Positions 5,249-34,085 of a DNA stretch of 37,704 nt are shown piece by piece (positions within the stretch are counted from its first letter, which is position 1; every line of letters starts with the position of its first letter). The notes below the pieces were generated by a model. That model was given only the letters and a program-made list of their open reading frames with translations. It did not search any database and was not told where the DNA came from. The stretch comes from an uncultured Deferribacteres bacterium (GTDB lineage Bacteria > Zhuqueibacterota > JdFR-76 > DREG01). The stretch is from assembly GCA_913009825.1 (NCBI GenBank), contig CAJVYQ010000053.1, positions 1 through 37,704 of the forward strand, read 5' to 3'. The position numbers and the translations under genes were made by a program.

Positions 5249-7486
5249 ATGAAAACATTTCTAAGTGTCATAATTTCCCTTCTTTTATTGAATGTCGCAA
5301 AGGCTAAAATCATTCATGTCCCAGGAGACCAACCAACTATTAAAGCTGGAATTGCTACTGCTATAGAAGGCGATACGGTTTTAGTACAGCCAGGTAAGTA
5401 TGTAGAACATATCTCTTTTAACGGTAAGGGCATAGTTGTTGGTTCGCTCTTTCTTACCACTCGTGATACTTCCTATATTTCTCAGACGGTCATTGATGGC
5501 GACACCAGCGGAAAAGTGGTATTTTTCATTAGTAATGAAGTGAAGACTTCGATTCTATGCGGGTTTACAATACAGAATGGTTTGGGCGGAGTTTTTTGCT
5601 TTAAGTCATCTCCGACAATTACTTATTGTACAATTAGCAGTAATTCGACTATCGATACATTAGAAAACGGGAAAGGAGCTGGGGGTGGAATATATTGTGA
5701 ACATGCATCTCCTACAATTTCCTACTGCACAATTTATGGTAATACGGCATATGGATACTTTGCTTGGGGTGGCGGAATTTATTGCTGCCTCAGTTCCAAA
5801 CCCGAAATAACTCATTGTATAATAAGTAACAATTCTTCAGTTCCATATTATTTTGCAACTCTGGGTGGTGGCATTTATAGCAGAGAAAGTTCACCGCGTA
5901 TCCTTAATAGTCTCATCACTAACAATAAATCTTCCATGGGTGCCGGTATGTATTGCTATTGGTATGACAATACGGAAGTGATTAATTGTACTGTTACTGA
6001 AAATATAAATTCAATACACAGTTCTACAGTGAGTATTGATGGACACTCTTCAATAAAAATAGCTAATTCCATAATTTATGGAAATACAGGAAACTCCGAC
6101 GTCGCAGTAAATGATGTGTTCAGTTCCATAAAATGCTATACCTCAGATATTGGAACCGGTTACTCGGGAGGCACAAATATTAGTTCCAATCCATTATTTA
6201 TAGGTAGCAGTGATTACAGACTGCAAGCGGCGAGTCCTTGTATAGACGCAGGTAACAGTTTGTGGGTTGGTTGGGATAGTGATTTAAATGGTAATCAGAG
6301 GCTTTGGGACGGCAATGGTTCTGGGGTAGCATATGTTGATATGGGTGCATATGAATACGGTTCTCAATCCGTTTCTCCTCTGTATTTAACTCATAACACA
6401 GGCGATTTTAAAATGTCGATTTTCTGGGATGGTAGTATTGGGCATCTCAGTTCAATGACGGCGCTTGGCGAAGGATGTGAATTTAAAAACAACTCAGATG
6501 CACTGTACGCGGGAGGATTGATCTTCGGAACGAAATCTGCGGGTTATGTAAACGGTAATCAGGCCAGCTTAGGTATTGTAAATGATTTCATTAATATTGA
6601 ATCAATACACACCGTTACATCAATGGACCCTGAGATTGACTATATTTCGGAGACGGCCTATAATGATAACAATGCAGCAGCTCCTTATGGAGTATCTGTC
6701 AGTCAAGAAGCCCTTTCCAAAAGCGGTGATGAATTTGTAATCTTAAAATTCGGATTTACTCCTACATCTTCTTCATTGAAATACTTTTACGCCGGAATAT
6801 TTGCCGATTGGGATGTTGGTGCAGCCGATGGTTATTCTAAAAACCTTGGGGGGTATGATCAATCAAGAAACCTTGCATATCAATATATTAATGACAGATC
6901 CCCAGACCCAAATTACTATGGTATAGTTGCTCTGAGCGGTATGGCAGGCGCTAAGATTGCTGCTGATACTGGTGGAGTGACAATGCGTGAAACAGCATTA
7001 CAAAGAATATCTACTTTTGAGAATGATACAATCACAGAGATTGGTGATTACAGAATGTGGATTGGATCTGGACCCTTTACTCTAAAACAAGGAAATACTA
7101 AATTTGTATATTTTGCATTTGTTGCCGGGACGGATCTTGCTAATCTACAGGCTAATGCTGATGCTGCGGCACAAAAATATCAGCATATAATTACTGATGT
7201 TGACGAAAATGAAGTTTTGCCTACACAATTTGGTTTAAGTCAGAATTACCCCGATCCTTTTAATCCCACGACACTCATAAATTATCAGATACCGAAGGGG
7301 TCTAATGTAATTCTCGAAATCTTTGATGTTTTAGGTAGAAGGGTTAAAGTACTTGTTGATGAATATAAAAACGCAGGTAATTATAAAATAGAGTTTAACG
7401 CCAAAAGTTTATCAAGTGGAACGTATTTCTACAGAATAAGAACAGGAAAATTTTCGGCTGTGAAGAAAATGTTATTGATAAAATGA
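5249..7486 (+). CDS. secreted right-handed beta-helix protein with type IX secretion tail
   Basis: A 745-aa exoprotein. Signal peptide residues 1-19 (ending AKA) are followed by IIHVPGDQPTIKAGIATA, the usual start of parallel beta-helix (PbH1, NosD-like) proteins. Repeats of the type SPTITYCTISSN and GGGIYC run from about residue 95 to 300 and form helix coils. A spacer ends near 370 (DMGAYEYG). Residues of about 375-650 form a domain I do not recognise. Residues 660-745 are the sorting tail (LSQNYPDPFNPTT to KKMLLIK), nearly the same as in the upstream exoprotein. Beta-helix proteins often bind or cleave polysaccharides, but no lyase or hydrolase motif is evident. The ATG follows GGAGG by 6-7 bases and lies 31 bases after the upstream attC. 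Confidence 0.83.
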   Translation: MKTFLSVIISLLLLNVAKAKIIHVPGDQPTIKAGIATAIEGDTVLVQPGKYVEHISFNGKGIVVGSLFLTTRDTSYISQTVIDGDTSGKVVFFISNEVKTSILCGFTIQNGLGGVFCFKSSPTITYCTISSNSTIDTLENGKGAGGGIYCEHASPTISYCTIYGNTAYGYFAWGGGIYCCLSSKPEITHCIISNNSSVPYYFATLGGGIYSRESSPRILNSLITNNKSSMGAGMYCYWYDNTEVINCTVTENINSIHSSTVSIDGHSSIKIANSIIYGNTGNSDVAVNDVFSSIKCYTSDIGTGYSGGTNISSNPLFIGSSDYRLQAASPCIDAGNSLWVGWDSDLNGNQRLWDGNGSGVAYVDMGAYEYGSQSVSPLYLTHNTGDFKMSIFWDGSIGHLSSMTALGEGCEFKNNSDALYAGGLIFGTKSAGYVNGNQASLGIVNDFINIESIHTVTSMDPEIDYISETAYNDNNAAAPYGVSVSQEALSKSGDEFVILKFGFTPTSSSLKYFYAGIFADWDVGAADGYSKNLGGYDQSRNLAYQYINDRSPDPNYYGIVALSGMAGAKIAADTGGVTMRETALQRISTFENDTITEIGDYRMWIGSGPFTLKQGNTKFVYFAFVAGTDLANLQANADAAAQKYQHIITDVDENEVLPTQFGLSQNYPDPFNPTTLINYQIPKGSNVILEIFDVLGRRVKVLVDEYKNAGNYKIEFNAKSLSSGTYFYRIRTGKFSAVKKMLLIK

Positions 7487-9066: not shown

Positions 9067-10845
9067 ATGAAGCGAAAAACCAAAACTTTCCTGTCTATCA
9101 AAATAGTTACAATATTTCTGCTTGTTATTCTTATTCTCTTCTGTTTTTATCTCGTTTTCCCTTTCTGGGGTATGCCGTTTAATGCACAACGACACGGGAA
9201 TGTGCCGGTCACGCCGCCCTGGGCTTTGGAATGCTGGCTGTGGGAAGATGATGAAAACACGGCGGCGCGTGTGGATGAACTGCTCGCCGGTTATGCGGAA
9301 CACGATATTCCCGTACGAACCGTTATACTGGACAGTCCCTGGAGTACCCGCTACAATGATTTTATCGTGGATGAAAACCGCTATCCCGCCCCGGAAGCAT
9401 GGTTCGGAAAATTGCAAAAAAACGGCTACCGGGTTGTCTTGTGGATGACCTGTATGGTGAATAGCAAAAACAAAGATACGCAGATTAAAAATTCGCAAAC
9501 CTGGTATGAGGCGGCACGATATAACGGCTATTTAGCGGCCGAGGGTTATCAAATAGGATGGTGGAAAGGTGAAGGCGGTTTCATCGATTACACCAACCCG
9601 GCCGCGATGAAATGGTGGCGCGGTTTGCAGCAGAAGGTTTTTGAGTACGGTATCGACGGCTGGAAATTAGACGGTACGGCTTCTTTTTTCACGAGTAAAT
9701 TGGGCCCGCTGCCCATTTTTTATCAGCGAACCAACGCCGGCTGGATGACGACACGCGGCTATCTGGATCACTATTACCGGGATGAATATGTTTATGGCCG
9801 GCAGCAGAATCCGGAGTTTGTCACTCTGTCGCGGGCTATCGACCGCTGGTACATTCATCCGGAGGGCTACGCGCCATTGGATGCCGCGCCGGTGACCTGG
9901 GTAGGCGATCAGAAACATACCTGGAAATCTGGTGATCGGGATGCCGCCGGTGATGATGATCTGGTGCGGGAGGGTGCCGAAGGGATTGAGCAGGCGCTGC
10001 AGAATATTCTTCGCAGCGCAAAAATCGGCTATTGCGTCATCGGCTCCGATGTGGCCGGTTTCAGCGGTGCGAAAATTCCGCCCCGGCTCTACATCCGCTG
10101 GGCGCAGTTTTCCACATTTTGCGGTCTGTTTCTTAACGGCGGCCATGGCGAGCGTGCGTTGTGGCGGCGCAGCCGGCAGGAATTGGAAATTATCCGTAAA
10201 TTTTCCTGGCTGCACACCGAGTTAATCCCGTACATGTACAGTCATGTGGTGATGTGCCATCGGGGCGGAAAGCCGTTGCAGCGTTCCGTCAGGGGGAAAT
10301 ATCACTACCTGTTTGGCGATGATTTCTTAGTCGCACCCATTTACCGGGACACGCCGACCAATACGGTTACGCTGCCCAAAGGCAACTGGCGCTATCTGTT
10401 TGATGATCATGAATTGCTGCCGGGGGGACAAACCATAACGCGGGATTTTCCCCTGGATGAATATCCTGTTTATGTTCGGGATGGGGCCATAATTCCCCTG
10501 CACGTGACAAGAAGCTACACAGGTTTTGGCGATGAAAATTCAGCCGGATACCTTACACTGCTGATCTATCCCGCCGGTCGCAATCATTTTGTAGTACATC
10601 ATCCGGACGGCGGCGGGGAAACAAAAGTGACTGTGGAGCAGAAAGAGAATACACTGCTTGTTCGTCTGAACGGTGTGAAAAAACCGCATATTCTACGTAT
10701 TTATTCTGAAATGCAGCCCAAAGAAGTCAGACTGGACGGCGCAATTTTACCGCAGCAGGAAAAATGGCAATACAATACCGGAGATAAAAAATTGCTGATC
10801 AGAACCGATGAATATGATGAAGGCGAGTATTCGATTTTATTTTGA
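9067..10845 (+). CDS. glycoside hydrolase family 31 protein, membrane-anchored
   Basis: A 592-aa retaining alpha-glycosidase of GH31. A hydrophobic segment at residues 12-32 is either an uncleaved anchor or a signal peptide. The TIM barrel carries YGIDGWKLDG with the predicted nucleophile D202, and TWVGDQKHTW with the predicted acid/base D281. These match the two GH31 signature Asp residues. The C-terminal beta-sandwich region includes FLVAPIY, LPKGNWRYLFD and YPVYVRDGAIIPL, typical GH31 post-barrel motifs. GH31 enzymes cleave alpha-glucosides, alpha-xylosides, alpha-galactosides or sulfoquinovosides; the specificity is not evident. It has no full N-terminal GH31 sandwich, so it is shorter than alpha-glucosidases. 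It likely acts in the periplasm on glycan side chains. Confidence 0.85.
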   Translation: MKRKTKTFLSIKIVTIFLLVILILFCFYLVFPFWGMPFNAQRHGNVPVTPPWALECWLWEDDENTAARVDELLAGYAEHDIPVRTVILDSPWSTRYNDFIVDENRYPAPEAWFGKLQKNGYRVVLWMTCMVNSKNKDTQIKNSQTWYEAARYNGYLAAEGYQIGWWKGEGGFIDYTNPAAMKWWRGLQQKVFEYGIDGWKLDGTASFFTSKLGPLPIFYQRTNAGWMTTRGYLDHYYRDEYVYGRQQNPEFVTLSRAIDRWYIHPEGYAPLDAAPVTWVGDQKHTWKSGDRDAAGDDDLVREGAEGIEQALQNILRSAKIGYCVIGSDVAGFSGAKIPPRLYIRWAQFSTFCGLFLNGGHGERALWRRSRQELEIIRKFSWLHTELIPYMYSHVVMCHRGGKPLQRSVRGKYHYLFGDDFLVAPIYRDTPTNTVTLPKGNWRYLFDDHELLPGGQTITRDFPLDEYPVYVRDGAIIPLHVTRSYTGFGDENSAGYLTLLIYPAGRNHFVVHHPDGGGETKVTVEQKENTLLVRLNGVKKPHILRIYSEMQPKEVRLDGAILPQQEKWQYNTGDKKLLIRTDEYDEGEYSILF

Positions 10846-13274: not shown

Positions 13275-14192
13275 TTGAGCATCATTGGCATTGACATCGG
13301 CGGCACAAAATGCGCTGTAATTAGGGCGGATAATGACGGCAGCCCGCAGGAAATTCATCGTTTTGCCACCACCAATTTGGACGAAACGCTGGAGGCGATA
13401 TTTTCAGGAATCAGTGAGCTGCGTCCTGGCGGATCGCCCGTCTTCGGCATCTCCTGCGGCGGGCCGCTGGACAGCAAAACCGGAATGATTCAGTCACCGC
13501 CCAATCTGCCCGGGTGGGATAATATCCCGATTGTTAAAATGATGACGGATCGTTTTGGCGGCCGCGCTTATCTGATGAATGACGCCAACGCCGGCGCGCT
13601 GGCGGAATGGCGTTTCGGCGCCGCGCAGGGTTTCAAAAACATCCTGTTTTTTACCCACGGTACCGGCATGGGAGGAGGACTTATTTTAGATGGCCGTCTT
13701 TACGAAGGCACAACAGGCGATGCCGGGGAAGTCGGTCATATCCGTTTGGATAAAGACGGGCCGGTTGGTTACGGAAAAGCCGGTTCGTTTGAGGGATTTT
13801 GCAGCGGCGGCGGCATCGCAAAACTTGCCGGGTCGGCAGGATTTCACCCGGCCGATAGCGGTTCGAAAGAAAATGTAACAGCCCGGGATGTGGCTTTGGC
13901 CGCCGAAAAAGGGGATGAGGAGGCACTGGCAATTCTGTCGCTGAGCGGCAGATATTTAGGGCAGGGGCTGGCCATTTTAATCGATATCTTAAATCCGGAA
14001 ATTATTGTGCTGGGCAGCATCTATTCCCGCGCCGGTAAATTTCTTGAGCCGGCCATGAGAAAAGCGCTGGCAGAGGAGGCGCGGTCACGGTCATTACAGG
14101 CATGCAAAATTGTGCCGGCAAAACTTGGCGAAGACATCGGTAATTATGCGGCCGTATCCATTGCACTGTACAAAGAGGGTAAGTTGGGATGA
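13275..14192 (+). CDS. ROK-family sugar kinase
   Basis: A 305-aa ROK protein without an N-terminal HTH, so a kinase rather than a repressor. It starts IGIDIGGTKCAVI (phosphate-1 loop), then LMNDANAGALAEW with the conserved catalytic-base Asp, THGTGMGGGLILDG and GDAGEVGHI. The usual Zn-binding CxCGxxGCxE cluster is altered: after GHI the sequence is GKAGSFEGFCSGGG with one Cys. ROK kinases phosphorylate glucose, fructose, GlcNAc or ManNAc; the one used here is unknown. The start is TTG, with AGGAG about 8 bases upstream. It overlaps the truncated phosphodiesterase frame by 4 bases (ATGA). Confidence 0.85.
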   Translation: MSIIGIDIGGTKCAVIRADNDGSPQEIHRFATTNLDETLEAIFSGISELRPGGSPVFGISCGGPLDSKTGMIQSPPNLPGWDNIPIVKMMTDRFGGRAYLMNDANAGALAEWRFGAAQGFKNILFFTHGTGMGGGLILDGRLYEGTTGDAGEVGHIRLDKDGPVGYGKAGSFEGFCSGGGIAKLAGSAGFHPADSGSKENVTARDVALAAEKGDEEALAILSLSGRYLGQGLAILIDILNPEIIVLGSIYSRAGKFLEPAMRKALAEEARSRSLQACKIVPAKLGEDIGNYAAVSIALYKEGKLG

Positions 14193-14886: not shown

Positions 14887-15012
14887 AATTGCGATTCGCT
14901 GAATCGACTTGCAGTAATATTTTGGATTTTACAATGCATCGAAACGGCTCAACAATCTGTTAGGGCTGAACTGACTACTAAAGCAAGATAAGGCAATTAA
15001 GGTGAATTGCAG

Positions 15013-16131
15013 ATGAAAAATTTGCTTTGTTTTATTTTTCTATTTGTATTAATTATAAATTGTAATACATCGGACACACCCAATCTTCAAGTATTCATTG
15101 ACGAAGATTATAACGCTTTATTCACGAGAACAAATGGATGGACAGGAGGAGATGTAGCTCATTCAATACCGTTATCGGATTCTTCAACTCTTTGGATTTT
15201 CGGTGATAGTTGGATTGGGCCTGTTAAAGATAGACGGCATTATAATTCAACTATGATAAGTAACGTAATCGCTATTCAACATAGTAAAGATACATATTCA
15301 GATAATCTAACATTTTATTATAAAGAGATAGATGGAAAACCGGCTCCATTTATTAGCCCTTCTGATGGCAATGGAGTATTTTGGTTTACCGATGGTGGCA
15401 TAAAAACAAGTAAAGGATTATTCCTTTTTGCTTCCCAGGTGATCAAAAAGGAAGACGATGAAAGCATTTTTGGTTTTGAGACCATTGGGAAATTTATTGT
15501 TCATGTTAAATATCCATTTGATGAACCCAATAATTGGAAGTGGAACATAAAGAAAATGCCGTATCTTTACAAATCATCCGAAGGATATGAACTATCTTTT
15601 GGCAGTCCACAATTTATAAGCAATGGCTATATTTATATTTACGGATATGAAATGAATATAGAGAATTTTGAGCGATTTATGATTTTAGCGAGAGTTGCGG
15701 AAGATAAAATTATCGATTTTGATACCTGGGAGTTTTTTTATGATAGGAAATGGCATAAAGAATCGACTAAAGTTACAAGACTCTGTAATCATTTTGGAGC
15801 GGAATACTCTGTTTCATATCAACCTTCCTTAAAAAAATATGTAACAATTTATACTGAGAATGGCATGTCGGATAATATAATGTTAAGAACAGCAGCCAAA
15901 CCGGAAGGTCCCTGGAGCGAACCGTTAATTGTCTATAGAGCACCTGAAGTAAAATGGGATAAAGAATACTTTTGTTATGCAGCAAAAGGTCACCCTGAAC
16001 TGTCAAATGGTTCTAACGACTTGCTTGTCAGTTATATTTGTAATTCTTTTAATTTTTCTAAAATGGTGGAGGATACAAGGATATACAGACCAAAATTTAT
16101 AAGAATAAGATTTGCAGACAATAATTATTAA
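15013..16131 (+). CDS. DUF4185/DUF5005-like propeller lipoprotein
   Basis: A 372-aa predicted lipoprotein: the signal peptide ends in the lipobox LIINC at the N-terminus. The core begins TRTNGWTGGDVAHSIPLSDS and WIFGDSWIG, then NSTMISNVIAIQ. This resembles the first blade of DUF4185/DUF5005 five-bladed propellers, which are related in shape to GH43/GH32 enzymes. Later blades include GVFWFTDGGI and YEMNIENFERFMILARV. No proven activity is known to me; a glycan-binding or hydrolytic role fits the neighbours. I chose ATG 15013 over TTG 15007 because AAGGTG lies 8 bases ahead of it. It is markedly more AT-rich than the rhamnosidase that follows. Confidence 0.65.
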   Translation: MKNLLCFIFLFVLIINCNTSDTPNLQVFIDEDYNALFTRTNGWTGGDVAHSIPLSDSSTLWIFGDSWIGPVKDRRHYNSTMISNVIAIQHSKDTYSDNLTFYYKEIDGKPAPFISPSDGNGVFWFTDGGIKTSKGLFLFASQVIKKEDDESIFGFETIGKFIVHVKYPFDEPNNWKWNIKKMPYLYKSSEGYELSFGSPQFISNGYIYIYGYEMNIENFERFMILARVAEDKIIDFDTWEFFYDRKWHKESTKVTRLCNHFGAEYSVSYQPSLKKYVTIYTENGMSDNIMLRTAAKPEGPWSEPLIVYRAPEVKWDKEYFCYAAKGHPELSNGSNDLLVSYICNSFNFSKMVEDTRIYRPKFIRIRFADNNY

Positions 16132-16296: not shown

Positions 16297-16332
16297 GAAC
16301 AATTACCGGAAATCTTAAAATTGGAGGAAGTT

Positions 16333-19300
16333 ATGCCATCCGTAAAAAAATTACTCCAAAACAATTGGCTGTTTCATCTGTTTGTGGCCGGTATCCTGTT
16401 ATTTACCGGATTGCTTTCCTGTGCCAAAGCTCCCAATGTCCCCGGGGCGCCGGAAGATTTACGCTGCGAATATCAAACTGATCCGTTAGGGATTGATGTG
16501 TTGCAGCCCCGTTTATCCTGGTTCGTCAATGACGGCAGAAGGGGAGCGGTTCAATCCGCCTACCGGATTTTAGTGGCAGGCAGCGAGCAGAAGCTCCGGC
16601 AGGATGCGGGAGATATTTGGGACAGCGGGAAGACTCTTTCCGGGCAGTCGGTGCATGTTCCGTACGCCGGCAGCGATTTACAATCAGGGAAAAGATACTA
16701 TTGGAAGGTGCGCACCTGGGATGGAGCTGATCAGCCTTCGCAGTACAGTAAATCCGCCTGGTGGGAAACGGGACTTTTGCATTCCACGGATTGGCGGGCG
16801 GAATGGATCGCCAAAAAATTACCGCCGGAAAAACCGGGATTGAATAATTGGCAATGGGGAGAATGGATCTGGAATGCTGCCGAGAACGGGAAAGATAAAC
16901 TCATTTATTTTCGCAAAAAATTTGAACTGCCTGCCTCGAAAAAAGTTGTTCGTGCCCGAATCAAAACCACAGCCGACAATTATTTCACCGCGTTTTTGAA
17001 TGGAAAGAAGATTGGTGAGGGTGCAGTCTGGACGAAAATGTTCGTTTTTGATGTCAAACCGATTCTTAAACCGGGCGCGAACATCATTGCCGTTACTGCC
17101 GCGAACAACAACGGAGAAATCTGCGGCTTTTTGTTCAGCCTTAAAATTGAGTTTGAAGACAGCTCGGCGCTTTACATTAATTCGGATAAAACATGGAAAA
17201 ACAGTACCCGCAAATTTTCCCATTGGCAGGATGCGGATTTTGATGATGGACACTGGCAAACCGTGCATGTTATCGAAGCGTACGGCGGGCCGCAATGGGG
17301 GAGAATTGAGAAAAAGGGAATTTACTCTCCGCCCCGGTCTATTTTGGTGCGCAAAGAATTCACGGCCGAAAAGAAAATCCATGCCGCCCGGGTTTACGTT
17401 ACCGGTCTGGGCAGTTATATCCTCCATGTTAATGGTCGGCGCATCGGCAATGACATCTTTACGCCGGGCTGGACCGATTATCCGACGCGCATCCAATACC
17501 AAACCTACGATGTGACGTCGTTTCTGAAGCGGGGGAAAAATGCCGTAGGTGCAATTTTGGGTAATATGTGGTGGAGCAGCGGATTGGGCTGGCGTGGTTC
17601 CAGTGTGTACAGTAAAGGCCCGCTGCGCTTTTTCATGCAATTGATTATGACTTATACAGACGGCAGCAGCGACACATTGGTAACCGATAAAACCTGGCGC
17701 ACACACGATTCGCCAATTCTGGAAAACAGCCTCTATCATGGGGAGACATACGATGCCCGATTGGAAATGGCCGGCTGGGATGAACCCGGATTTGATGATT
17801 TAACTTGGGAACCGGTGATCAAACCGGAACAACAGATTGTGAAACTTGTTGCGCAACAAGGGCCCGCCATCCAAATAACCCGGGAAATCCATCCGGTAAA
17901 TATCACCGAACCGGATTCGGGCACTTACGTTTTTGATCTGGGTCAAAATATGGTCGGCTGGGTTCAACTGAAAGTGAGAGGAAAAACCGGCACAAAAGTC
18001 GTGCTGCGGTTTGCCGAAATTTTGAAAAAAGACGGCAATATTTACACAGAAAACTTGCGCAGCGCCCGGGCAACGGACACTTACATTTTGCGCGGCGGTG
18101 GTACTGAAATCCGGCAGCCACATTTTACCTACCATGGTTTTCGCTATGTGGAGGTGAAGGGCTTTCCGGGTGTGCCGGATAAAAACGCAATCACGGGCAA
18201 AGTGATTCATTCGGCGGCGGCGGAGATTGGCCATTTTGCCTGTTCCAATGACTTGATCAACCGGATTCAGCATAATATTGTTTGGGGACAGCGAGGCAAT
18301 ATGGAAAGCGTACCCACCGACTGTCCGCAGCGGGACGAACGACTGGGTTGGATGGGCGATGCACAGACTTTTTCGCCCACAGCCAGTTACAATATGAATA
18401 TGGCCCGTTTCTTTTCCAAATGGATGAATGATATCACCGATTGCCAGGATGCGGACGGCGCGGTGCATGATGTAAGTCCTACCATTGTGGTCGGCGGTCC
18501 GGCAAAACCGGCCTGGGGAGATGCCGTGGTTATTGTGCCCTGGATGATGTACCGTTTTTATGGCGATAAACGGATCATCGAAAAAAATTATGACGGTATG
18601 GCCGCCTGGGTGAATTATATGAAAAATAAGAGTAAAGGGTTCCTGTATGAACAAAACGGCTACGGCGATTGGGTGGCTCCGGTAGAATCGCCCAAAAAAC
18701 CGATCGGTTCCGCTTATTTTTATTATAGTACAAAACTCCTGTCCCAAATGGCGGCAATTATCGGCAAAGAGGCTGACGCATTCATCTATGAAAAACTGGC
18801 CGAAAAAATTGCCGAAGCATACAACAAGAAGCATCTGGACAATAATAGTTATGAATATGAAGGCGCCACGCAAACGGCCAATTTACTGCCGCTGGCATTT
18901 GGTATAACGCCCCCCAACCTGACAGATAAAGTGGTTGCAAATGTAGTGAAAGATGTGAAGAAAAGAGGGAATCACTTGTCAACCGGATTTTTAGGCACCG
19001 GTTATCTGCTTCCTGTGCTTAGCGGGAACGGTTTCCATGAATTGGCGTATCAAGTCGCTTCGCAGACAACTTACCCTTCCTGGGGCTACATGGTTGAGAA
19101 AGGCGCAACCACAATCTGGGAGTTGTGGAACGGCGATACGCAGGGGCCGGGAATGAATTCCCGCAATCATTTTGCTCTCGGTTCGGTTGGCGAATGGTTT
19201 TACGGTTACCTCGCCGGTATCCGTCCGGATCCGTCCACGCCGGGTTTTAAAAAGGCGGTCATCGCTCCCCGGCCTGCCGGTGATTTAACTTGGGCGGAAG

Positions 19301-19581
19301 GAAGTATGAAAACAGTTTACGGCGTGATTTTTACACGCTGGGAGACAAAAACGGATCGTTTTATTTTGAACCTTTCGCTGCCGGCGAATACTTCCGCTGC
19401 CGTTTTTCTGCCAAAATCGGGCGAAAAAAATGTGACAATGAAGGAAAGCGGAAAAATTATCTTCTCCGCCGGAAAAGCGGCGCCGGGTGTGACGGAAATA
19501 AAATTTAATCGCACAGAAAAAGATGCCGTTGTATTTGATGTCGGCGCCGGCAAATATAAATTTACGGTGTTACATGAATAA
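16333..19581 (+). CDS. GH78 alpha-L-rhamnosidase, lipoprotein
   Basis: A 1082-aa inverting alpha-L-rhamnosidase. Residues 1-30 are a lipoprotein signal ending GLLSC. Next comes an Ig-like N-terminal domain (PEDLRCEYQTDPLGIDVLQP to about residue 150). Then come two beta-sandwich domains (Bac_rhamnosid_N-like, with ARVYVTGLGSYILHVNG). The (alpha/alpha)6 barrel holds PTDCPQRDERLGWMGDAQTF (general acid E669 region) and TTIWELWNGD (base E930 region), both GH78 hallmarks. A C-terminal sandwich ends the protein. It removes terminal alpha-L-rhamnose from glycans, probably in the periplasm or at the outer membrane. ATG 16333 follows GGAGGAAG. Long antisense frames (17800-18873, 16819-17739) are shadows of its codon bias. 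Confidence 0.93.
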   Translation: MPSVKKLLQNNWLFHLFVAGILLFTGLLSCAKAPNVPGAPEDLRCEYQTDPLGIDVLQPRLSWFVNDGRRGAVQSAYRILVAGSEQKLRQDAGDIWDSGKTLSGQSVHVPYAGSDLQSGKRYYWKVRTWDGADQPSQYSKSAWWETGLLHSTDWRAEWIAKKLPPEKPGLNNWQWGEWIWNAAENGKDKLIYFRKKFELPASKKVVRARIKTTADNYFTAFLNGKKIGEGAVWTKMFVFDVKPILKPGANIIAVTAANNNGEICGFLFSLKIEFEDSSALYINSDKTWKNSTRKFSHWQDADFDDGHWQTVHVIEAYGGPQWGRIEKKGIYSPPRSILVRKEFTAEKKIHAARVYVTGLGSYILHVNGRRIGNDIFTPGWTDYPTRIQYQTYDVTSFLKRGKNAVGAILGNMWWSSGLGWRGSSVYSKGPLRFFMQLIMTYTDGSSDTLVTDKTWRTHDSPILENSLYHGETYDARLEMAGWDEPGFDDLTWEPVIKPEQQIVKLVAQQGPAIQITREIHPVNITEPDSGTYVFDLGQNMVGWVQLKVRGKTGTKVVLRFAEILKKDGNIYTENLRSARATDTYILRGGGTEIRQPHFTYHGFRYVEVKGFPGVPDKNAITGKVIHSAAAEIGHFACSNDLINRIQHNIVWGQRGNMESVPTDCPQRDERLGWMGDAQTFSPTASYNMNMARFFSKWMNDITDCQDADGAVHDVSPTIVVGGPAKPAWGDAVVIVPWMMYRFYGDKRIIEKNYDGMAAWVNYMKNKSKGFLYEQNGYGDWVAPVESPKKPIGSAYFYYSTKLLSQMAAIIGKEADAFIYEKLAEKIAEAYNKKHLDNNSYEYEGATQTANLLPLAFGITPPNLTDKVVANVVKDVKKRGNHLSTGFLGTGYLLPVLSGNGFHELAYQVASQTTYPSWGYMVEKGATTIWELWNGDTQGPGMNSRNHFALGSVGEWFYGYLAGIRPDPSTPGFKKAVIAPRPAGDLTWAEGSMKTVYGVIFTRWETKTDRFILNLSLPANTSAAVFLPKSGEKNVTMKESGKIIFSAGKAAPGVTEIKFNRTEKDAVVFDVGAGKYKFTVLHE

Positions 19582-22009: not shown

Positions 22010-23059
22010 ATGATTCCAACACTCAAAGATGTTGCCGAACGCGCCGGCGTTCATCCTTCAACTGTATCCCGGGTTTTACAGGGGAAAGAGAACCTGCCCA
22101 TTTCGGAAAAAACACGCACATCGATCTTTGCCATCGCCAAAGAATTGAATTACCAACCTAACCAATTGGCGCGGGCATTTCGTTTAAAGAAGACCCAGAC
22201 CATCGGCTTAATTGTCCCGGATATTTCCAATCCTTTCTTTTCCGGTATTGCCCGAAGTATCGAAATTTGCAGTCGCCGTAAAGACTATACAGTTGTGCTT
22301 GGCAATACCGATGAAAATCAGGACCGGGAAATCCGCATGATCAATAATCTGCTCAGCCGGGGGATCGATGGGTTGATTTTAGCTCCGGTTCAGGACCGTT
22401 CCGGTCACATCAAAGATTTGTGTAATAGAAATTTTCCGTTGGTTCTGATAGACCGTTGTTTTGACGAACTGGAAACCAATGCGGTAATCAGCGATAATGA
22501 GGAAGCCGCCTTCAATGCCATCTCTTATCTTGCACAAGCAGGGCACCGGCGGATCGGATTTATCAGCGGACGAAAAAATATCTACACGATCCGGAAACGA
22601 TTTTTGGGTTATCAAAAAGGGATAAAAACTTTCGATTTGGTTGATGATTCTGAGCTGGTCTCTGATAATGGATTTACTCTGGAAAGCGGTTATCATTCAA
22701 CTCGTAAAATTTTATCTTTACCAAAATCTCCCACAGCATTGTTGATCTCCGGAAACAAGATTACCGTAGGCGCCATGAAAGCTATTTTTGAGAAAAAATT
22801 GTCCATCCCGGATGATATCTCATTGATCGGTTTTACGGATTTCATCGGTTCTCCGTATTGGGTAGTGCCCATGACCACCATTACCCACCCGGTAAAAGAG
22901 ATGGGTGAAGCAGCGTTTAACCTTTTGTTTAATAACATGGCGACAAAGGAGACGGTACCCCATTCCAAGATGATGGTTGCGACGAAATTGAATATCAGAG
23001 GTTCGGTGAAAAACCTGGCATTGGCTGATTTTGCCGCGAACAGTTTCCCGCAGGGATAA
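22010..23059 (+). CDS. LacI-family transcriptional regulator
   Basis: A 349-aa one-component regulator. Residues 3-50 are the LacI HTH (TLKDVAERAGVHPSTVSRVL) with hinge helix YQPNQLARAFRLKKTQTIG. Residues 60-335 form the periplasmic-binding-like sensor (IGLIVPDISNPFFSGIARSI, RGIDGLILAPVQ, VLIDRCFD, AGHRRIGFISG). It would bind a CG-centred palindrome and release it on binding a sugar. It is the only regulator in the locus and starts 11 bases before the membrane/sialidase fusion, so the two are probably co-transcribed. AAGGTG precedes the ATG. Confidence 0.92.
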   Translation: MIPTLKDVAERAGVHPSTVSRVLQGKENLPISEKTRTSIFAIAKELNYQPNQLARAFRLKKTQTIGLIVPDISNPFFSGIARSIEICSRRKDYTVVLGNTDENQDREIRMINNLLSRGIDGLILAPVQDRSGHIKDLCNRNFPLVLIDRCFDELETNAVISDNEEAAFNAISYLAQAGHRRIGFISGRKNIYTIRKRFLGYQKGIKTFDLVDDSELVSDNGFTLESGYHSTRKILSLPKSPTALLISGNKITVGAMKAIFEKKLSIPDDISLIGFTDFIGSPYWVVPMTTITHPVKEMGEAAFNLLFNNMATKETVPHSKMMVATKLNIRGSVKNLALADFAANSFPQG

Positions 23060-23070
23060 AATATTTAGAT

Positions 23071-25599
23071 ATGCAAAATTTCTCCAAAATGAATAAAATC
23101 GATCTTCTTTTTGTTGCTCTTGCCATGTCCTTTGGTTGGGGATTTCGCGGCAATTACGGCCATGAATACGGCGCCATGGTGCCCGGTGCCCTGGCTGCCA
23201 TCGCTGCCTGTTTGGTTTCCGGCAGGAAAGACTGGTATGACAAGATTCTTTATTTCGGTTTGTTTGGCGCCATCGGCTGGGCATTTGGCGGACAGATGAG
23301 TTATGGCATCATCATCGGTTACACTCATTCTGCTGATCCGCTCACCGTTTTTTATGGATTTGGTGCGCTGTTCCTGGAAGGCTTCATCTGGGGAGGGATC
23401 GGAGCCGGTATTTTAGCACTGGTGGTGGTATTGGATTCCAAACGGCTGAACGAAATGATTTTCCCCTTTTTGATGATTTTTCTTGTCTGGTCTGTGGTAA
23501 ATATTATTTTACTTTCCCAATATGGCGATACAGAACCGGATGTTTTTTATTATTTTGATACGGATTGGATCGCCGCAGCGGGAGCCTTGCCGGTATTGCT
23601 GCTGATCATCGTTATCCGCCGGGAAATATCCCAGGCCGTCTCATTGATGCTCCATTTAACCATCGGTTGGCTGGCTGGGATTTTTATTTTTGTGACTTTG
23701 CTTGGATTGCATTTGTCGCCGCCGCGCAGCGATAACTGGGCCGGCGCTCTGGGTGTGTTTATTGGCCTGGCCATTTTTCTACTTCGGCATAAGTACCGGT
23801 TGGCGCTTTACGCTTCGTTATTTGTCGGTTTATTTTCGGGTATCGGATTTTCGACCGGACAACTGTTCCAGATTTGGGGAACGGCATCGGGGATACATCT
23901 GGACTGGTGGAAGATCATGGAGCAATCTTTTGGCTTGATCACCGGTTTGGGTGTTGCTTTGTCTTTTCAAAACCTGCGCGCCGCTGCACCCGGATTGAAG
24001 CAGGATGCGAAGGGGTTCAATTTTGGAAAAGGATTTGCACTGTTTTTTCTTTTGATAGCCATGACGTATGTGAATTTCGAAAAAAATGTAACGGCCTGGT
24101 TGAAAAGCGGCATGGTGGATGCGCAAATTTTTGGGAGGTCGCCTCATTTTTGGTTCGATGCGGCATATCTGTTTTTGGGTTTGTTGGTGATTATCTTCAT
24201 CGTAAAAGCGCGAAAAGAAAAGCCGGTTATTTTGCCGGAAACATTGGTGGGGCAGGGCTACTTGCTTTTTCTTGTCATCCTTTGGTGGATAATCATCGGT
24301 GATCTGTTTTTGGCCGTTTTTCATTTCAATTTAATCCGTCTTATAGTGGAGGGTTCTTTTTTTATGTCTGCTATTTTACTTTCAACCTGGTTGGCGCTGC
24401 GTAAACCTTTAATGGTAGCGGCGCCGGTTCAAACATTGTCGAATCCACAACTCAAAATTAAAAAAGTCATGGTAACTCTTGCTGTTGTCTTGCCGTTGGT
24501 GATTTTGATAAACGGTTCACTGGCGTTATTATCTCATGCTAAACCTTTGGCGGGCGTTCACCTTCGCTTTGGTGAACAACAACGACAGAAACTGAAAAAA
24601 ACCGGGGCGGCGATGTTGCAATCGGAATTTATCTTTGATCAGGCTCCTTTCGCGGAATGTCATGCATCAACCATTGTGGCAACGAAACAGGGTTTGGTTT
24701 CGGCCTGGTTCGGCGGCACGGAAGAGAAGAATCCCGATGTGGGGATCTGGATTTCCAGAAATACCGGCAGCGGTTGGTCACAGGTAGTGGAAATCGCCAA
24801 CGGTGTGCAGAAGCAAAAATTACGCTATCCATGCTGGAATCCGGTTCTCTTTCAACCTCGGTCGGGACCTTTGATGTTGTTTTATAAAGTGGGACCCAAT
24901 CCGAGGGAATGGTGGGGGATGGTGATCACTTCCGATGACGGCGGAGCAACCTGGTCTGAACCGCAAAAACTTCCCGGTGGATTTCTTGGCCCTATCAAAA
25001 ACAAACCGGTGCAGCTTGACAATGGTTCCATTTTATGTCCTTCCAGCACCGAATCACGGACTGAAGGCTGGAAAGTGCATCTGGAGCGATTTTGGCCTGC
25101 GGAAAATAAATGGCAAATGATCGGGCCGCTAAACGACGGGAAGAAATTTGGCGCCATTCAACCTACAATTCTCACATATCCTTCCGGCGCGCTGCAGATT
25201 CTCTGTCGCAGCAAACAGAGGCGAATCACCGAATGCCGGTCCCGGGATAGCGGCAAAACCTGGAGCGAAATGCGGGCCACCGAACTGCCCAATCCCAACA
25301 GCGGCATCGATGCCGTGACGCTCCGCGACGGGCGGACCTTGTTGGTTTACAATCACACGGAAAGAAACCGCACGCCGCTCAATGTGGCAATTTCTGCGCA
25401 TGGCGAACATTGGCGGGCAGCCCTGGTTTTGGAAGATCAGCCGGGAGAATATTCTTATCCTGCCGTCATTCAATCCGGGGACGGATTGGTACACATCACC
25501 TACACTTACAAGCGAAAAAAGATCAAACATGTTGTATTGGATCCGGAAAAGTTGGTTCTGCGTGAAATGTACAATGGAAAGTGGCCGGAAAAGAAATGA
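23071..25599 (+). CDS. fusion of a polytopic membrane domain and a sialidase-like propeller
   Basis: An 842-aa two-part protein. Residues of about 5-495 contain roughly 12-14 hydrophobic helices, beginning MSFGWGFRGNYGHEYGAMVP, with no transporter family I can name. Residues of about 515-840 are a BNR_2/sialidase-like propeller: AECHASTIVATKQGLVSAWF, then GGTEEKNPDVGIW, and Asp-boxes SDDGGATWSE (about 620) and SRDSGKTWSE (about 723). The propeller could be a sialidase, but propellers of this style also include rhamnose-glucuronate lyases or hydrolases. Activity is therefore open. The topology would put the propeller on the periplasmic face. It follows the LacI gene by 11 bases. A second Met (23092) is a possible start. 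Confidence 0.72.
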   Translation: MQNFSKMNKIDLLFVALAMSFGWGFRGNYGHEYGAMVPGALAAIAACLVSGRKDWYDKILYFGLFGAIGWAFGGQMSYGIIIGYTHSADPLTVFYGFGALFLEGFIWGGIGAGILALVVVLDSKRLNEMIFPFLMIFLVWSVVNIILLSQYGDTEPDVFYYFDTDWIAAAGALPVLLLIIVIRREISQAVSLMLHLTIGWLAGIFIFVTLLGLHLSPPRSDNWAGALGVFIGLAIFLLRHKYRLALYASLFVGLFSGIGFSTGQLFQIWGTASGIHLDWWKIMEQSFGLITGLGVALSFQNLRAAAPGLKQDAKGFNFGKGFALFFLLIAMTYVNFEKNVTAWLKSGMVDAQIFGRSPHFWFDAAYLFLGLLVIIFIVKARKEKPVILPETLVGQGYLLFLVILWWIIIGDLFLAVFHFNLIRLIVEGSFFMSAILLSTWLALRKPLMVAAPVQTLSNPQLKIKKVMVTLAVVLPLVILINGSLALLSHAKPLAGVHLRFGEQQRQKLKKTGAAMLQSEFIFDQAPFAECHASTIVATKQGLVSAWFGGTEEKNPDVGIWISRNTGSGWSQVVEIANGVQKQKLRYPCWNPVLFQPRSGPLMLFYKVGPNPREWWGMVITSDDGGATWSEPQKLPGGFLGPIKNKPVQLDNGSILCPSSTESRTEGWKVHLERFWPAENKWQMIGPLNDGKKFGAIQPTILTYPSGALQILCRSKQRRITECRSRDSGKTWSEMRATELPNPNSGIDAVTLRDGRTLLVYNHTERNRTPLNVAISAHGEHWRAALVLEDQPGEYSYPAVIQSGDGLVHITYTYKRKKIKHVVLDPEKLVLREMYNGKWPEKK

Positions 25600-26792: not shown

Positions 26793-28304
26793 TTGGGGTC
26801 CCAATTTTATTTAGCTGATAAGGTTATACTGCTTTTATATTTTTTAGGCGTGATTCTGTTAGGCGTGTATTTTCGGAAAAAAAGCTCCACACCCATGGGG
26901 TTCATGATCGCTGAAGGTTCTCTGCCAAGTTGGGCAGTGGGGTTATCCATGTTGGGTACTTTTGTCAGCAGTATTACCTTCATTGCATATCCCGGCCAGG
27001 CGTACAATTTTAATTGGGATGCTTTCATGTTTTCCGTCACACTGCCTGTTGCCGCATTGATTGCGACCGTCTACTTTGTGCCGCTGTACCGCAGCAAAGT
27101 GAAGGTATCGGCTTACGAATATCTGGAGCAGCGCTTCGGCGGCTGGGCGCGGGTTTACGGCAGTATCAGTTTCATGTTCGGTTCCCTGACCCGGATCGGT
27201 ATGATTTTGTTCCTGGTCTCCCTGGTTTTGCATAGTTTAACCGGCTGGTCTTATGTTACAATCATCATCAGTATGGGAATCGGCGTCACGCTTTACACGG
27301 TAGTTGGCGGCATTGAGGCTGTGATCTGGACGGATGTCATTCAGGTGATTATTTTGATTGGCGGTGCATTGATTGCTACACTCATTCTAATCTTTGATAT
27401 GCCGGACGGACCGGGACAGATTTTTGCTATCGCCGCCCAGCATGATAAATTTTCGCTGGGCAGTTGGCGGTTCGATTTAGTGGCACCAACGGCGTGGGTA
27501 GTAGTATTGTACGGTATTATGGAAAATCTACGGAATTTTGGCGTGGATCAAAATTATGTGCAAAGATACCAAACCACCCATTCCACGAAGGATGCAGTAA
27601 AATCGGTCTGGACGGCCGCTATCGCCTACATTCCCATTTCCGCGCTTTTCCTGTTCATCGGTACCGCGCTGTTTGCTTACTATTCCGTTTATCCAAATCT
27701 GCTGCCGCAGAATCTTCACGGAGAATTGATGGGCGACAAAATTTTTCCCCATTTCATCGTAACGCAATTACCGGTGGGGTTGCGCGGCGTTTTGATTGCC
27801 GCCATTATGGCGGCGGCCATGAGCAGTATCGATTCATCCCTGAATTGTGTATCAACTCTCACGCTGCTCGATTTTTACAAGAAATATTTTCGAAAGGATG
27901 CGGACGATGTGCAAAGTATCAGGATGCTGCGCTGGTATACGGCTATTTGGGGATTTTTAGGCACGCTCACCGGGTTGGCCCTTATCCAGGTTCGAACCGC
28001 GCTGGAAACCGGCTGGCAGCTTGGCGGCATCGCCGGCGGAGGGGTGATCGGCCTGTTTTTGTTAGGCATCATGTTCCGCTGGGTGAAAAGGCGGCATGCG
28101 ATTGTGGCCGTAATCACCAGCGTCATCAGCATCGCCTGGGCTACATTTGCCCGTAATTTGCCGGATGGATGGGCCTGGCTGGAGTGCACCTGGCATACGC
28201 GTATGATTGGTGTCATTGGTACGATCACGCTTTTGGTTGTTGGTATTGTGTTGGGTGCAACCAATTATTTCAACAGGGAAGCCTGGTTTCAGGAGGGGAA
28301 ATAA
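26793..28304 (+). CDS. SSS-family sodium:solute symporter
   Basis: A 503-aa solute:sodium symporter with about 13 helices. Family marks include LSMLGTFVSSITFIAYPGQA (TM2), VSAYEYLEQRFGGWARVYGS, TLYTVVGGIEAVIWTDVIQV and MAAAMSSIDSSLNC, the last near the conserved Na2-site Ser region. It would import a sugar or sugar acid with Na+. SSS proteins include sialic-acid (SiaT-type), glucose/galactose and uronate-type carriers. The start is TTG, with AAGGAG about 11 bases upstream. It is separated from the HAD gene only by a mobile repeat. Confidence 0.92.
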   Translation: MGSQFYLADKVILLLYFLGVILLGVYFRKKSSTPMGFMIAEGSLPSWAVGLSMLGTFVSSITFIAYPGQAYNFNWDAFMFSVTLPVAALIATVYFVPLYRSKVKVSAYEYLEQRFGGWARVYGSISFMFGSLTRIGMILFLVSLVLHSLTGWSYVTIIISMGIGVTLYTVVGGIEAVIWTDVIQVIILIGGALIATLILIFDMPDGPGQIFAIAAQHDKFSLGSWRFDLVAPTAWVVVLYGIMENLRNFGVDQNYVQRYQTTHSTKDAVKSVWTAAIAYIPISALFLFIGTALFAYYSVYPNLLPQNLHGELMGDKIFPHFIVTQLPVGLRGVLIAAIMAAAMSSIDSSLNCVSTLTLLDFYKKYFRKDADDVQSIRMLRWYTAIWGFLGTLTGLALIQVRTALETGWQLGGIAGGGVIGLFLLGIMFRWVKRRHAIVAVITSVISIAWATFARNLPDGWAWLECTWHTRMIGVIGTITLLVVGIVLGATNYFNREAWFQEGK

Positions 28305-28423: not shown

Positions 28424-29455
28424 ATGAATAACAACCAACCGATCAAACCGTATCATCCTTTATCAAAAAACGAATTAGCAGAAACGCTCCGTCGAATTAA
28501 AAATGCCCGGATCGCCGTGATTGGTGACTTTTGTCTGGATGTTTACTGGCTGTTGGATATAAGCGCCGGTGAAATTTCCATCGAAACCGGAAAAAGAACC
28601 CTGCCGATTCGGGAACAACGATATTCGTTGGGCGGCGCCGGCAACGTGGTTGCCAATTTGCATGATTTAGGCGTAGGCGGGATCTTTGCATTTGGTATTG
28701 TGGGAGATGATCCGTTCGGCGACAAAATGTTAAATCTGCTTGCGGAAAAAGCCAATTGTGACAATATGCTGACCGGCGATTCTCCATCCTGGCAAACACT
28801 GACGTACTGCAAGCCGATGTTGAACGGCGAAGAACTGTCCCGGTTGGATGTGGGAAATTTCAACAAACTGTCCGAATCGTTGGCGTCACGATTGATCGAT
28901 AATCTGGAACACGCAGTGGAACGGTATCATGTTGTTATCATCAACGAGCAGGTTGTTAGCGGTATTCACACGGATTATTTGCGCAAGGGTCTGGCAGAAG
29001 TTGTCAAACGATATAAAAAGCCGGTATTTCTTTTGGATGGCAGACATGTTCAGGGCGTTTATCCGGCGTGGTTGAAAATGAACGATCACGAAGCGCTGAA
29101 GATGTGCGGGAAACAAAAACCGGTTACCGAAGAAATTTCCCGGGAAGAAGTTTTGGCGGCAATTGAATTTGTCTATCAAAAACAGGAAGCGCCACTTGTT
29201 GTGACGCGGGGCGGCGAGGGATGTGTGGTGCGCAACGCCGACGGCATCTCTCTGGTACCGGGAATCCGGGTTCGCGGTGAAATTGATACGGTGGGCGCCG
29301 GCGACAGTTTTTTGGCCGGTCTGTCTGCTGCGCTAGCTGTTGGCAAGCAATTGGGAGCGGCGGCGCAGGTGGGCAATTTAGTGTCTGCGGTGACAATCCA
29401 AAAAATCGGTCGAACGGGAACGGCAACGCCGGAGGAGATTTTAGCTCTTCTGTAA
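28424..29455 (+). CDS. PfkB-family carbohydrate kinase (HldE-N/RfaE-like)
   Basis: A 343-aa ribokinase-like kinase. The N-terminus IAVIGDFCLDVYW and the loop YSLGGAGNVVANLHDLGVGG resemble the kinase half of HldE/RfaE. The C-terminal signature DTVGAGDSFLAGL contains the anion hole and catalytic Asp. It lacks the nucleotidyltransferase domain of HldE. In this locus a role in phosphorylating an imported monosaccharide is more likely than heptose synthesis. It ends 32 bases before the MFS gene, suggesting one transcript. Confidence 0.85.
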   Translation: MNNNQPIKPYHPLSKNELAETLRRIKNARIAVIGDFCLDVYWLLDISAGEISIETGKRTLPIREQRYSLGGAGNVVANLHDLGVGGIFAFGIVGDDPFGDKMLNLLAEKANCDNMLTGDSPSWQTLTYCKPMLNGEELSRLDVGNFNKLSESLASRLIDNLEHAVERYHVVIINEQVVSGIHTDYLRKGLAEVVKRYKKPVFLLDGRHVQGVYPAWLKMNDHEALKMCGKQKPVTEEISREEVLAAIEFVYQKQEAPLVVTRGGEGCVVRNADGISLVPGIRVRGEIDTVGAGDSFLAGLSAALAVGKQLGAAAQVGNLVSAVTIQKIGRTGTATPEEILALL

Positions 29456-32816: not shown

Positions 32817-34085
32817 ATGAAACTCTCAAAAAACAGTTTAATCATCACATTTATTACGATTCTCCTGTTTTTCGGACTGTTGACTTCGTGTGAAAAGAAA
32901 CCATCCTCCCAGGTTAAAAATGACAAAATTATTTCAGCGGAATTCAGGGATGTCAAATCTACCGGCCATGGCAAGCTGGAAATAACCGGACAGGGCGAGG
33001 ATCAGATTTATGTGCTGACGGTTTGGGGAAGCGCTTACGAAATGGGTGCAGCATACGGTACACTGCTTAAAAATGAAATAGGGACGAGTGTACCCGAACT
33101 GATTAAAAAGATGACCGAAAATGCGGGCGTGGGTGTGGAAGTGCTGGATGGGATTTATCAACAGGCCAAACCCTACATCCCCGCCTATTTTCTTGATGAA
33201 ATGCGCGGTATTGCCGATAGCAGCGGCCTGTCGCTGCAGGATGTGATCCGGGCGAATTTGATCGGCGAAGCCAGCGAGTGGCATTGCAGTCTGTTTGGCG
33301 CCTGGGGCAAGGCAACAGCCGCGGACGGCCATCTTTATCAACTACGCAGTCTGGATTATGAAACCGGCGCTAATATTCAAAAGTATCCTGTGGTTGTTGT
33401 TTACGTTCCTGATAAAGGGCATCCCTTTGCCAATATTACCTGGGCCGGAATTGTGGGGTGTATTTCCGGTGTCAGCCGGGAACGTTTGGCTATCAGTGAA
33501 ATCGGCGACGATTACAACAAAGAAGACGATACTTATTCCGGTATTCCTTTCATGTTTTTACTACGCAATGTTTTGCAATTCGATGAAAGTCTGGACGCCG
33601 CTATTCAACGGATCAAAAACGCACCGCGAACCACTTCGCTCATTTACGGCATCGGCGATGGTGAATTTGGCCAGCTACGCGGTTTCCAAACTTCCCACAC
33701 GCTTTGTAATGTATTCTCCCCGGATAATCTGGAGCCGGTGACGGCAACACACAAACGGATCGATGATATTGTTTACTGGGGCATGAGTTGGGACGTGCCC
33801 GATTACGACGGCCCGCTTCATGACAAATTGGTGGAACATTACGGTAACATCAATGCCCAGGTAACCATTAACGATATTGTTACTTCGGTGGGCACCGGCA
33901 ATTTACAAACCGTGGTTTATGATTTAACCGATATGAAAACCTGGATTGCCAACGCCAAAGCCGATGATGAATCGGGTCCTTTGGAGGCTTATAACCGGCA
34001 ATTTGTGGAATTTGACATGGGACAGATATTTGCAAAAGCAAAGGAATTGGCGGGGAAGCAGCAGGAAGCTTCTTCTGCAAAGTAA
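32817..34085 (+). CDS. C45-family (acyltransferase-like) Ntn hydrolase, lipoprotein
   Basis: A 422-aa predicted lipoprotein (signal ending GLLTSC). The core WGSAYEMGAAYGTLLKNEI, then DEMRGIADSSG, leads to EWHCSLFGAWGKATAADGHL and YQLRSLDYE. This is the C45/phospholipase-B-like arrangement, in which a Cys (here in WHCS) becomes the Ntn nucleophile after cleavage of the preceding segment. Families include isopenicillin-N acyltransferase-like amidases. It could remove an N- or O-acyl group from a substrate in the periplasm, but that is inference. It starts 21 bases after the oxidoreductase stop, with AAGGAG, so the two are co-transcribed. Confidence 0.78.
   Translation: MKLSKNSLIITFITILLFFGLLTSCEKKPSSQVKNDKIISAEFRDVKSTGHGKLEITGQGEDQIYVLTVWGSAYEMGAAYGTLLKNEIGTSVPELIKKMTENAGVGVEVLDGIYQQAKPYIPAYFLDEMRGIADSSGLSLQDVIRANLIGEASEWHCSLFGAWGKATAADGHLYQLRSLDYETGANIQKYPVVVVYVPDKGHPFANITWAGIVGCISGVSRERLAISEIGDDYNKEDDTYSGIPFMFLLRNVLQFDESLDAAIQRIKNAPRTTSLIYGIGDGEFGQLRGFQTSHTLCNVFSPDNLEPVTATHKRIDDIVYWGMSWDVPDYDGPLHDKLVEHYGNINAQVTINDIVTSVGTGNLQTVVYDLTDMKTWIANAKADDESGPLEAYNRQFVEFDMGQIFAKAKELAGKQQEASSAK

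Follow-up and report, generated by a model that had tools for sequence, protein, structure and literature searches.

By computational analysis we found that the gene at positions 23071-25599 of the window (the whole 37,704-nucleotide stretch analyzed, from contig CAJVYQ010000053.1 of an uncultured Deferribacteres bacterium) encodes a true two-module protein, in which a member of a conserved and undescribed membrane family (residues 1-500) is followed by a BNR_2-type sialidase-fold propeller with an altered active site, and that this fusion is conserved in a second genome. The gene is a single intact open reading frame on the plus strand having an ATG start and encoding 842 residues (Table 1). 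The Pfam match to BNR_2 (PF13088) had an E value of 9.8e-90 and a score of 301 bits against a cutoff of 31.4 and spanned profile positions 3-277 of 277, with the wider homologous propeller domain beginning near residue 520. Pfam gave no match within residues 1-541 and NCBIfam gave none for the 842-residue protein. Hence, the multi-helix membrane domain and propeller with two Asp-boxes first proposed from the DNA were borne out by Pfam, AlphaFold and the sequence, the only adjustment being the size of the membrane domain, which is about 500 residues rather than about 490 and is followed by a linker.

Table 1 Features of the fusion gene and its surroundings in the window
Feature	Residues	Positions	Strand	Basis or remark
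GH78 alpha-L-rhamnosidase		16321..19581	+	Pfam; 60% identical relative in G006 propeller locus
LacI-family regulator		22010..23059	+	Pfam LacI and Peripla_BP_3; 11 bases upstream of the fusion gene
Membrane domain	1-500	23071..24570	+	Family alignments A1, A2 and A4; AlphaFold; charge and hydropathy
Two-helix insert	~126-205	23446..23685	+	A1 columns 143-206; model helices 130-151 and 163-183
Linker	501-541	24571..24693	+	Ends of standalone members and start of BNR_2 match
BNR_2 sialidase-fold propeller	542-809	24694..25497	+	Pfam and GH33 PDB profile match
Asp-box 1, SDDGGATW	621-628	24931..24954	+	
Gln at the catalytic Glu place (NanC Glu584)	697	25159..25161	+	Alignment; residue roles from PMC4646021
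Asp-box 2, SRDSGKTW	724-731	25240..25263	+	
Tyr at the sialidase nucleophile place (NanC Tyr695)	796	25456..25458	+	Alignment; residue roles from PMC4646021
SSF sodium:solute symporter		26793..28304	+	Pfam; two genes downstream of the fusion gene
PfkB kinase		28424..29455	+	Pfam and NCBIfam; nearest model heptose-7-phosphate kinase domain, below cutoff

Separate genes in all close relatives would have spoken against the original prediction. Fused and split forms were both found in other genomes. An independent KSB1 record (JADHVV010000011.1, genome G065) carries a second, in-frame fusion that is 59% identical to the window protein over 829 residues and has a linker of similar length. In G006, a genome from the order of the window organism, the membrane part and the propeller are separate genes on different contigs, the former encoding 519 residues and having a neighbor that, by sequence reading, resembles an ABC sugar-binding protein. 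The two fused copies formed one clade in the membrane-domain tree (96/90); the propeller tree did not resolve a single origin, yet is compatible with one. The two-helix insert is shared by the fused pair and G006 and is missing from the shorter standalone members. Given the second diverged copy, the separate genes in G006 and the clade of fused copies, the fusion is rare, diverged and maintained. Assembly error or a frameshift joining two adjacent genes, a reading to which the split genes of G006 lend some color, is extremely improbable and is refuted in practice because the second genome carries the same fusion. Neither the fusion nor the membrane family, which has no name to search by, gave any relevant result in a literature search.

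Members of the membrane family are about 430-550 residues long and mostly stand alone. They were found in 16 genomes of the KSB1 phylum, and three further phyla had them in 64 of 85, 56 of 68 and 12 of 14 genomes. The conserved motifs are RGxxGHE, SYG, PPRS and WWxxME, and the window protein carries this set together with the family tail. Alignment A1 had 41 invariant columns among 16 sequences, and in alignment A2 all 23 diverse members retained Trp23, Arg26, Gly27, Gly30, Gly34, Ala35, Gly39, Gly96, Gly104, Pro218, Arg219, Glu284, Gly288 and Gly292. When 32 members were scanned with Pfam, two matched DUF6077 weakly (best E = 3e-6) and one matched GYF_2; none of the 32 matched an NCBIfam model. 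In a PDB sequence search the top matches had E values of 0.007 or worse and seem to be random. The N-terminus could have proved to be a known transporter prone to routine domain fusions, and no such match was found in Pfam, NCBIfam, PDB sequences or PDB folds. The gene neighbors of standalone members are varied. At seven loci (L053, L146, L148, L149, L153, L156 and L177) a PF13524 glycosyltransferase-like gene adjoins the membrane-family gene on the same strand; it lies directly upstream in six of seven loci of another phylum and encodes 608-735 residues in the measured copies. Because its conservation extends far past the fusion and most of its members are standalone, the family must serve some independent function.

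The junction of the two modules lies at a conserved place. Standalone members mostly end 0-9 residues past the Arg-Phe of the family's conserved tail, G(A)HxRF, and the window membrane domain ends in GVHLRF, just beyond which the propeller is joined on. G543 and G544, two genomes from another phylum, have an FGE-sulfatase domain after the corresponding tail (E = 7e-50 and 1e-48); these SUMF1-like (PF03781) fusions lie at L189:1282-3861:+ and L188:6380-8794:-. Many paralogs, several of them in the phylum of 68 genomes, bear an unassigned extracytoplasmic extension of about 115-122 residues after the membrane module (L052, where it starts FGPNAYW, and L141, L157, L159, L162, L167, L170, L172, L174 and L192). 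Since a propeller, an FGE-sulfatase domain and a domain of about 115 residues all follow the tail, periplasmic domains of several kinds can be joined to the family at a single place.

AlphaFold gave a confident all-helical model of residues 1-510 (pLDDT 88.8, pTM 0.91) and of a 427-residue standalone core (pLDDT 92.9, pTM 0.93). By hydropathy and loop charge, 15 transmembrane helices are predicted in the window domain; to the model of the standalone core we assign 13. Taking a Foldseek TM-score of 0.5 or more as a fold match, neither model matched the PDB: nothing reached E ≤ 0.001, and among the matches listed the TM-score of the query was at most about 0.20. The membrane model matched nothing in BFVD. 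The structure prediction called for at the outset thus yielded a confident helical model lacking a PDB fold match, and a new fold is a possibility that these searches of the PDB and BFVD raise. HGSNAT/NagX (DUF5009-type) acetyltransferases resemble the window membrane part in being polytopic and in belonging to glycan-catabolic loci, but share neither sequence nor fold similarity with it; HGSNAT was absent from the PDB profile matches and the listed fold matches, though a true homolog is easily found. A search for internal repeats gave a 4+4 helix repeat with an hhalign P of 4e-4 on A2. Internal duplication is only a hint, because one of 60 block-shuffled controls reached or beat the A4 score.

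An orientation with the N-terminus inside is indicated by charge, 22 of 23 members having more lysine plus arginine in cytoplasmic than in outer loops. The window protein has 23 such residues inside versus 12 outside, half of the 12 being in the C-terminal tail. From this distribution and the odd number of helices, the N-terminus is predicted to be cytoplasmic and the C-terminus with the propeller periplasmic. Arg26, His31, Glu32, Ser77, Tyr78, Arg219, Trp279, Glu284 and Arg499 are invariant or nearly so, and such polar residues map at or near the predicted periplasmic helix ends. On inspection, standalone propellers start with signal peptides, of which several have a lipobox-like cysteine, and this argues that the propeller domain ordinarily functions outside the cytoplasm. 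The proposed tethering of the propeller to the inner membrane is well supported as a prediction by charge, odd helix count and these signal peptides.

The propeller profile matched GH33 sialidases best in the PDB, the top match being NanC (4yw1, E = 1.1e-17). In NanC, Arg290, Arg600 and Arg662 form the arginine triad, Glu584 is catalytic and Tyr695 is the nucleophile (PMC4646021). In the HMMER alignment Arg713, Arg767 and Tyr796 of the window protein correspond to Arg600, Arg662 and Tyr695, and the place of Glu584 is taken by Gln697, the 16-residue spacing of Gln697 and Arg713 being that of Glu584 and Arg600. His531 seemingly sits at the place of Arg290, in a stretch (the N-terminal blades) outside the PDB profile alignment. 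The window propeller resembles the GH33 exo-sialidases and intramolecular trans-sialidases in its fold by profile, in having Asp-boxes and two arginines of the triad, and in the tyrosine position. It differs from them in the change of glutamate to glutamine, which leaves the tyrosine unpaired with a catalytic glutamate, in the apparent histidine for the first arginine, in its fusion to a polytopic membrane part and in belonging to a strongly conserved separate subfamily (CHAS, GPIKNKP, PNPNSGID and EYSYPAV). Gln697 was invariant in all 19 relatives aligned, and by this alignment the variant site is a conserved one and not decay. Sialic-acid cleavage is unlikely because every relative aligned has glutamine for the catalytic glutamate; a plain sialidase was rejected on this change, and the sialidase-type cleavage implied at first was not supported. 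The propeller could be a binder devoid of activity.

The PF13088 BNR_2 proteins, which include standalone KSB1 lipoproteins, match the window protein over the full length of the domain, and several standalone relatives are 57-63% identical to its propeller. Those relatives have a signal peptide, whereas the window propeller is joined to 15 membrane helices. Propellers of the window type are abundant: in two phyla, a genome has about 15 matches. Linked split forms were seen in G434 and G547, and among about 51 sampled membrane-family loci we counted five unfused propellers nearby versus about two expected at about 15 propellers per genome. Owing to the abundance of propellers, proximity to a membrane-family gene is weak evidence, and we rejected operon linkage of split forms as a strong argument on this slight excess. 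A 724-residue open frame at G411:C74:22603-24609 apparently encodes two tandem propellers of the window subfamily.

The fusion gene lies, as first noted, 11 bases behind a regulator, which is of LacI type, and the description of this as the only regulator of the locus holds for the genes scanned: a ROK gene at 13275-14192 (305 residues) matched only the ROK family and had no DNA-binding domain by Pfam. Glycan-degradation genes of the window include GH78, GH31, SSF, MFS, PfkB, Gfo/Idh and AGE-type epimerase genes. The G065 fusion is surrounded by GH5, two GH2 and FAD oxidoreductase genes. Relatives of the SSF gene were found in three standalone-propeller loci or genomes and also in membrane-family loci, and the window PfkB has a 43% identical relative in the propeller locus of G015. 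Standalone-propeller loci contain DHDPS/NAL-type aldolase genes (twice), phosphoheptose-isomerase-like genes (twice) and an FGGY kinase gene directly upstream (three times). In G006 (L109:4540-8558) the end of an SSF gene is overlapped by the standalone propeller gene, and 28 bases past the propeller gene lies an HGSNAT/DUF5009-type gene encoding a polytopic HGSNAT homolog (E = 1e-17) distinct from the membrane family. Such loci would fit the liberation and breakdown of a sugar that is acidic or long-chain. The G015 locus (L108:2108-4635 and 9739-10575), with a DHDPS/NAL-type aldolase, separate HldE-like nucleotidyltransferase and kinase genes and a phosphoheptose-isomerase-like gene, appears to encode a pathway for a long-chain sugar. 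For the window, a locus dedicated to sialic-acid catabolism was considered on the presence of ROK, AGE-type epimerase and SSF genes but was rejected, as no NanA-type lyase (PF00701) match was found among the window genes scanned with Pfam; the genome of the organism has only distant DHDPS-family genes, outside the window.

Other genes of the window deserve mention. A DUF4185/DUF5005 protein (15007-16131) adjoins the GH78 gene, and we take DUF4185 to include the GH183 endo-D-arabinanases. Two secreted proteins having a type IX sorting domain (Por_Secre_tail) are encoded at 1720-4905 (Sortilin and Kelch propellers) and 5249-7486 (beta-helix). A C45-type autoproteolytic acyltransferase/hydrolase (NCBIfam NF040521, above cutoff) is encoded at 32817-34085, inside the sugar locus.

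We tentatively favor a reading in which two pre-existing modules were joined such that the propeller acts on an acidic sugar at the periplasmic face and the membrane part handles the product, with catabolism following. The 15-helix membrane part would hold the propeller on the periplasmic face beside the conserved polar site, this anchoring replacing export via the propeller's own signal peptide. The propeller would most likely bind or cleave an acidic, probably non-sialic, terminal sugar of oligosaccharides reaching the periplasm. The membrane part would then process the freed sugar or the leftover glycan at its periplasmic site, either by transport or by chemical modification, and the SSF and MFS transporters and the kinase of the locus would pass the product to catabolism. 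Computation establishes the fusion, its conservation, the two families and the altered active site, while the topology is predicted and the substrate class and the hand-over between propeller and membrane part are what we infer. Coupling of the propeller to transport, as originally suggested, is plausible.

Chemical modification could instead be the whole task of the membrane part. As a group-transfer enzyme, unrelated to HGSNAT/NagX and similar in action, it would modify a periplasmic sugar or glycan using a cytoplasmic donor, with the propeller presenting or trimming the acceptor. The conserved Arg, His, Glu and Trp residues at predicted periplasmic helix ends would suit such an enzyme, as would the HGSNAT homolog that follows the G006 propeller gene, the PF13524 genes beside seven membrane-family loci (six directly upstream) and the FGE-sulfatase domain, which has an enzyme fold, joined to the module in another phylum. 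However, neither its sequence nor its fold matched any transferase, HGSNAT among them, in the searches made, and we identified no cytoplasmic donor-binding motif in the membrane part. We consider this reading unlikely.

Rather more doubtful is a transporter whose propeller is a catalytically dead receptor, akin to a fused binding protein, boosting uptake of one acidic oligosaccharide. Loss of the glutamate in 19 of 19 relatives, with two carboxylate-binding arginines and the tyrosine retained, fits a receptor, and SSF or ABC transport genes beside several standalone members and the weak internal repeat fit transport. SSF, MFS and ABC sugar importers are likewise polytopic and are neighbors of the window gene and of several relatives, but the membrane domain matched no transporter family, nor did its model match a solved transporter. 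Moreover, the locus already has SSF and MFS transporters, and the repeat does not clearly exceed its controls.

It is improbable that the membrane part is a mere anchor that replaced a lipoprotein signal, its ancestral function being lost or irrelevant here. Some membrane attachment is usual for the propeller, as its close relatives are signal-peptide or lipoprotein types, but 15 helices far exceed what an anchor requires and both fused copies retain the residues that are most conserved in the family.

Taken alone, the propeller is a variant of a well-known fold, and the novelty lies in the membrane family, which is present in most sampled genomes of three phyla and has strictly conserved residues, confident models and, in these searches, no solved counterpart. 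It is possible, although we would not count on it, that the membrane part has a new fold and belongs to a new class of transporters or membrane enzymes that extends across several under-studied bacterial phyla, with the interchangeable periplasmic domains at its tail feeding its periplasmic site. The fusion provides a second route, beside lipoprotein anchoring, to keep such a propeller at the inner membrane, and whether the sialidase fold has acquired another substrate or mechanism can be tested on the propeller subfamily having glutamine for glutamate. Because the fusion puts the membrane family in physical connection with a periplasmic domain that acts on sugars, it offers a natural hint as to the role of that family.
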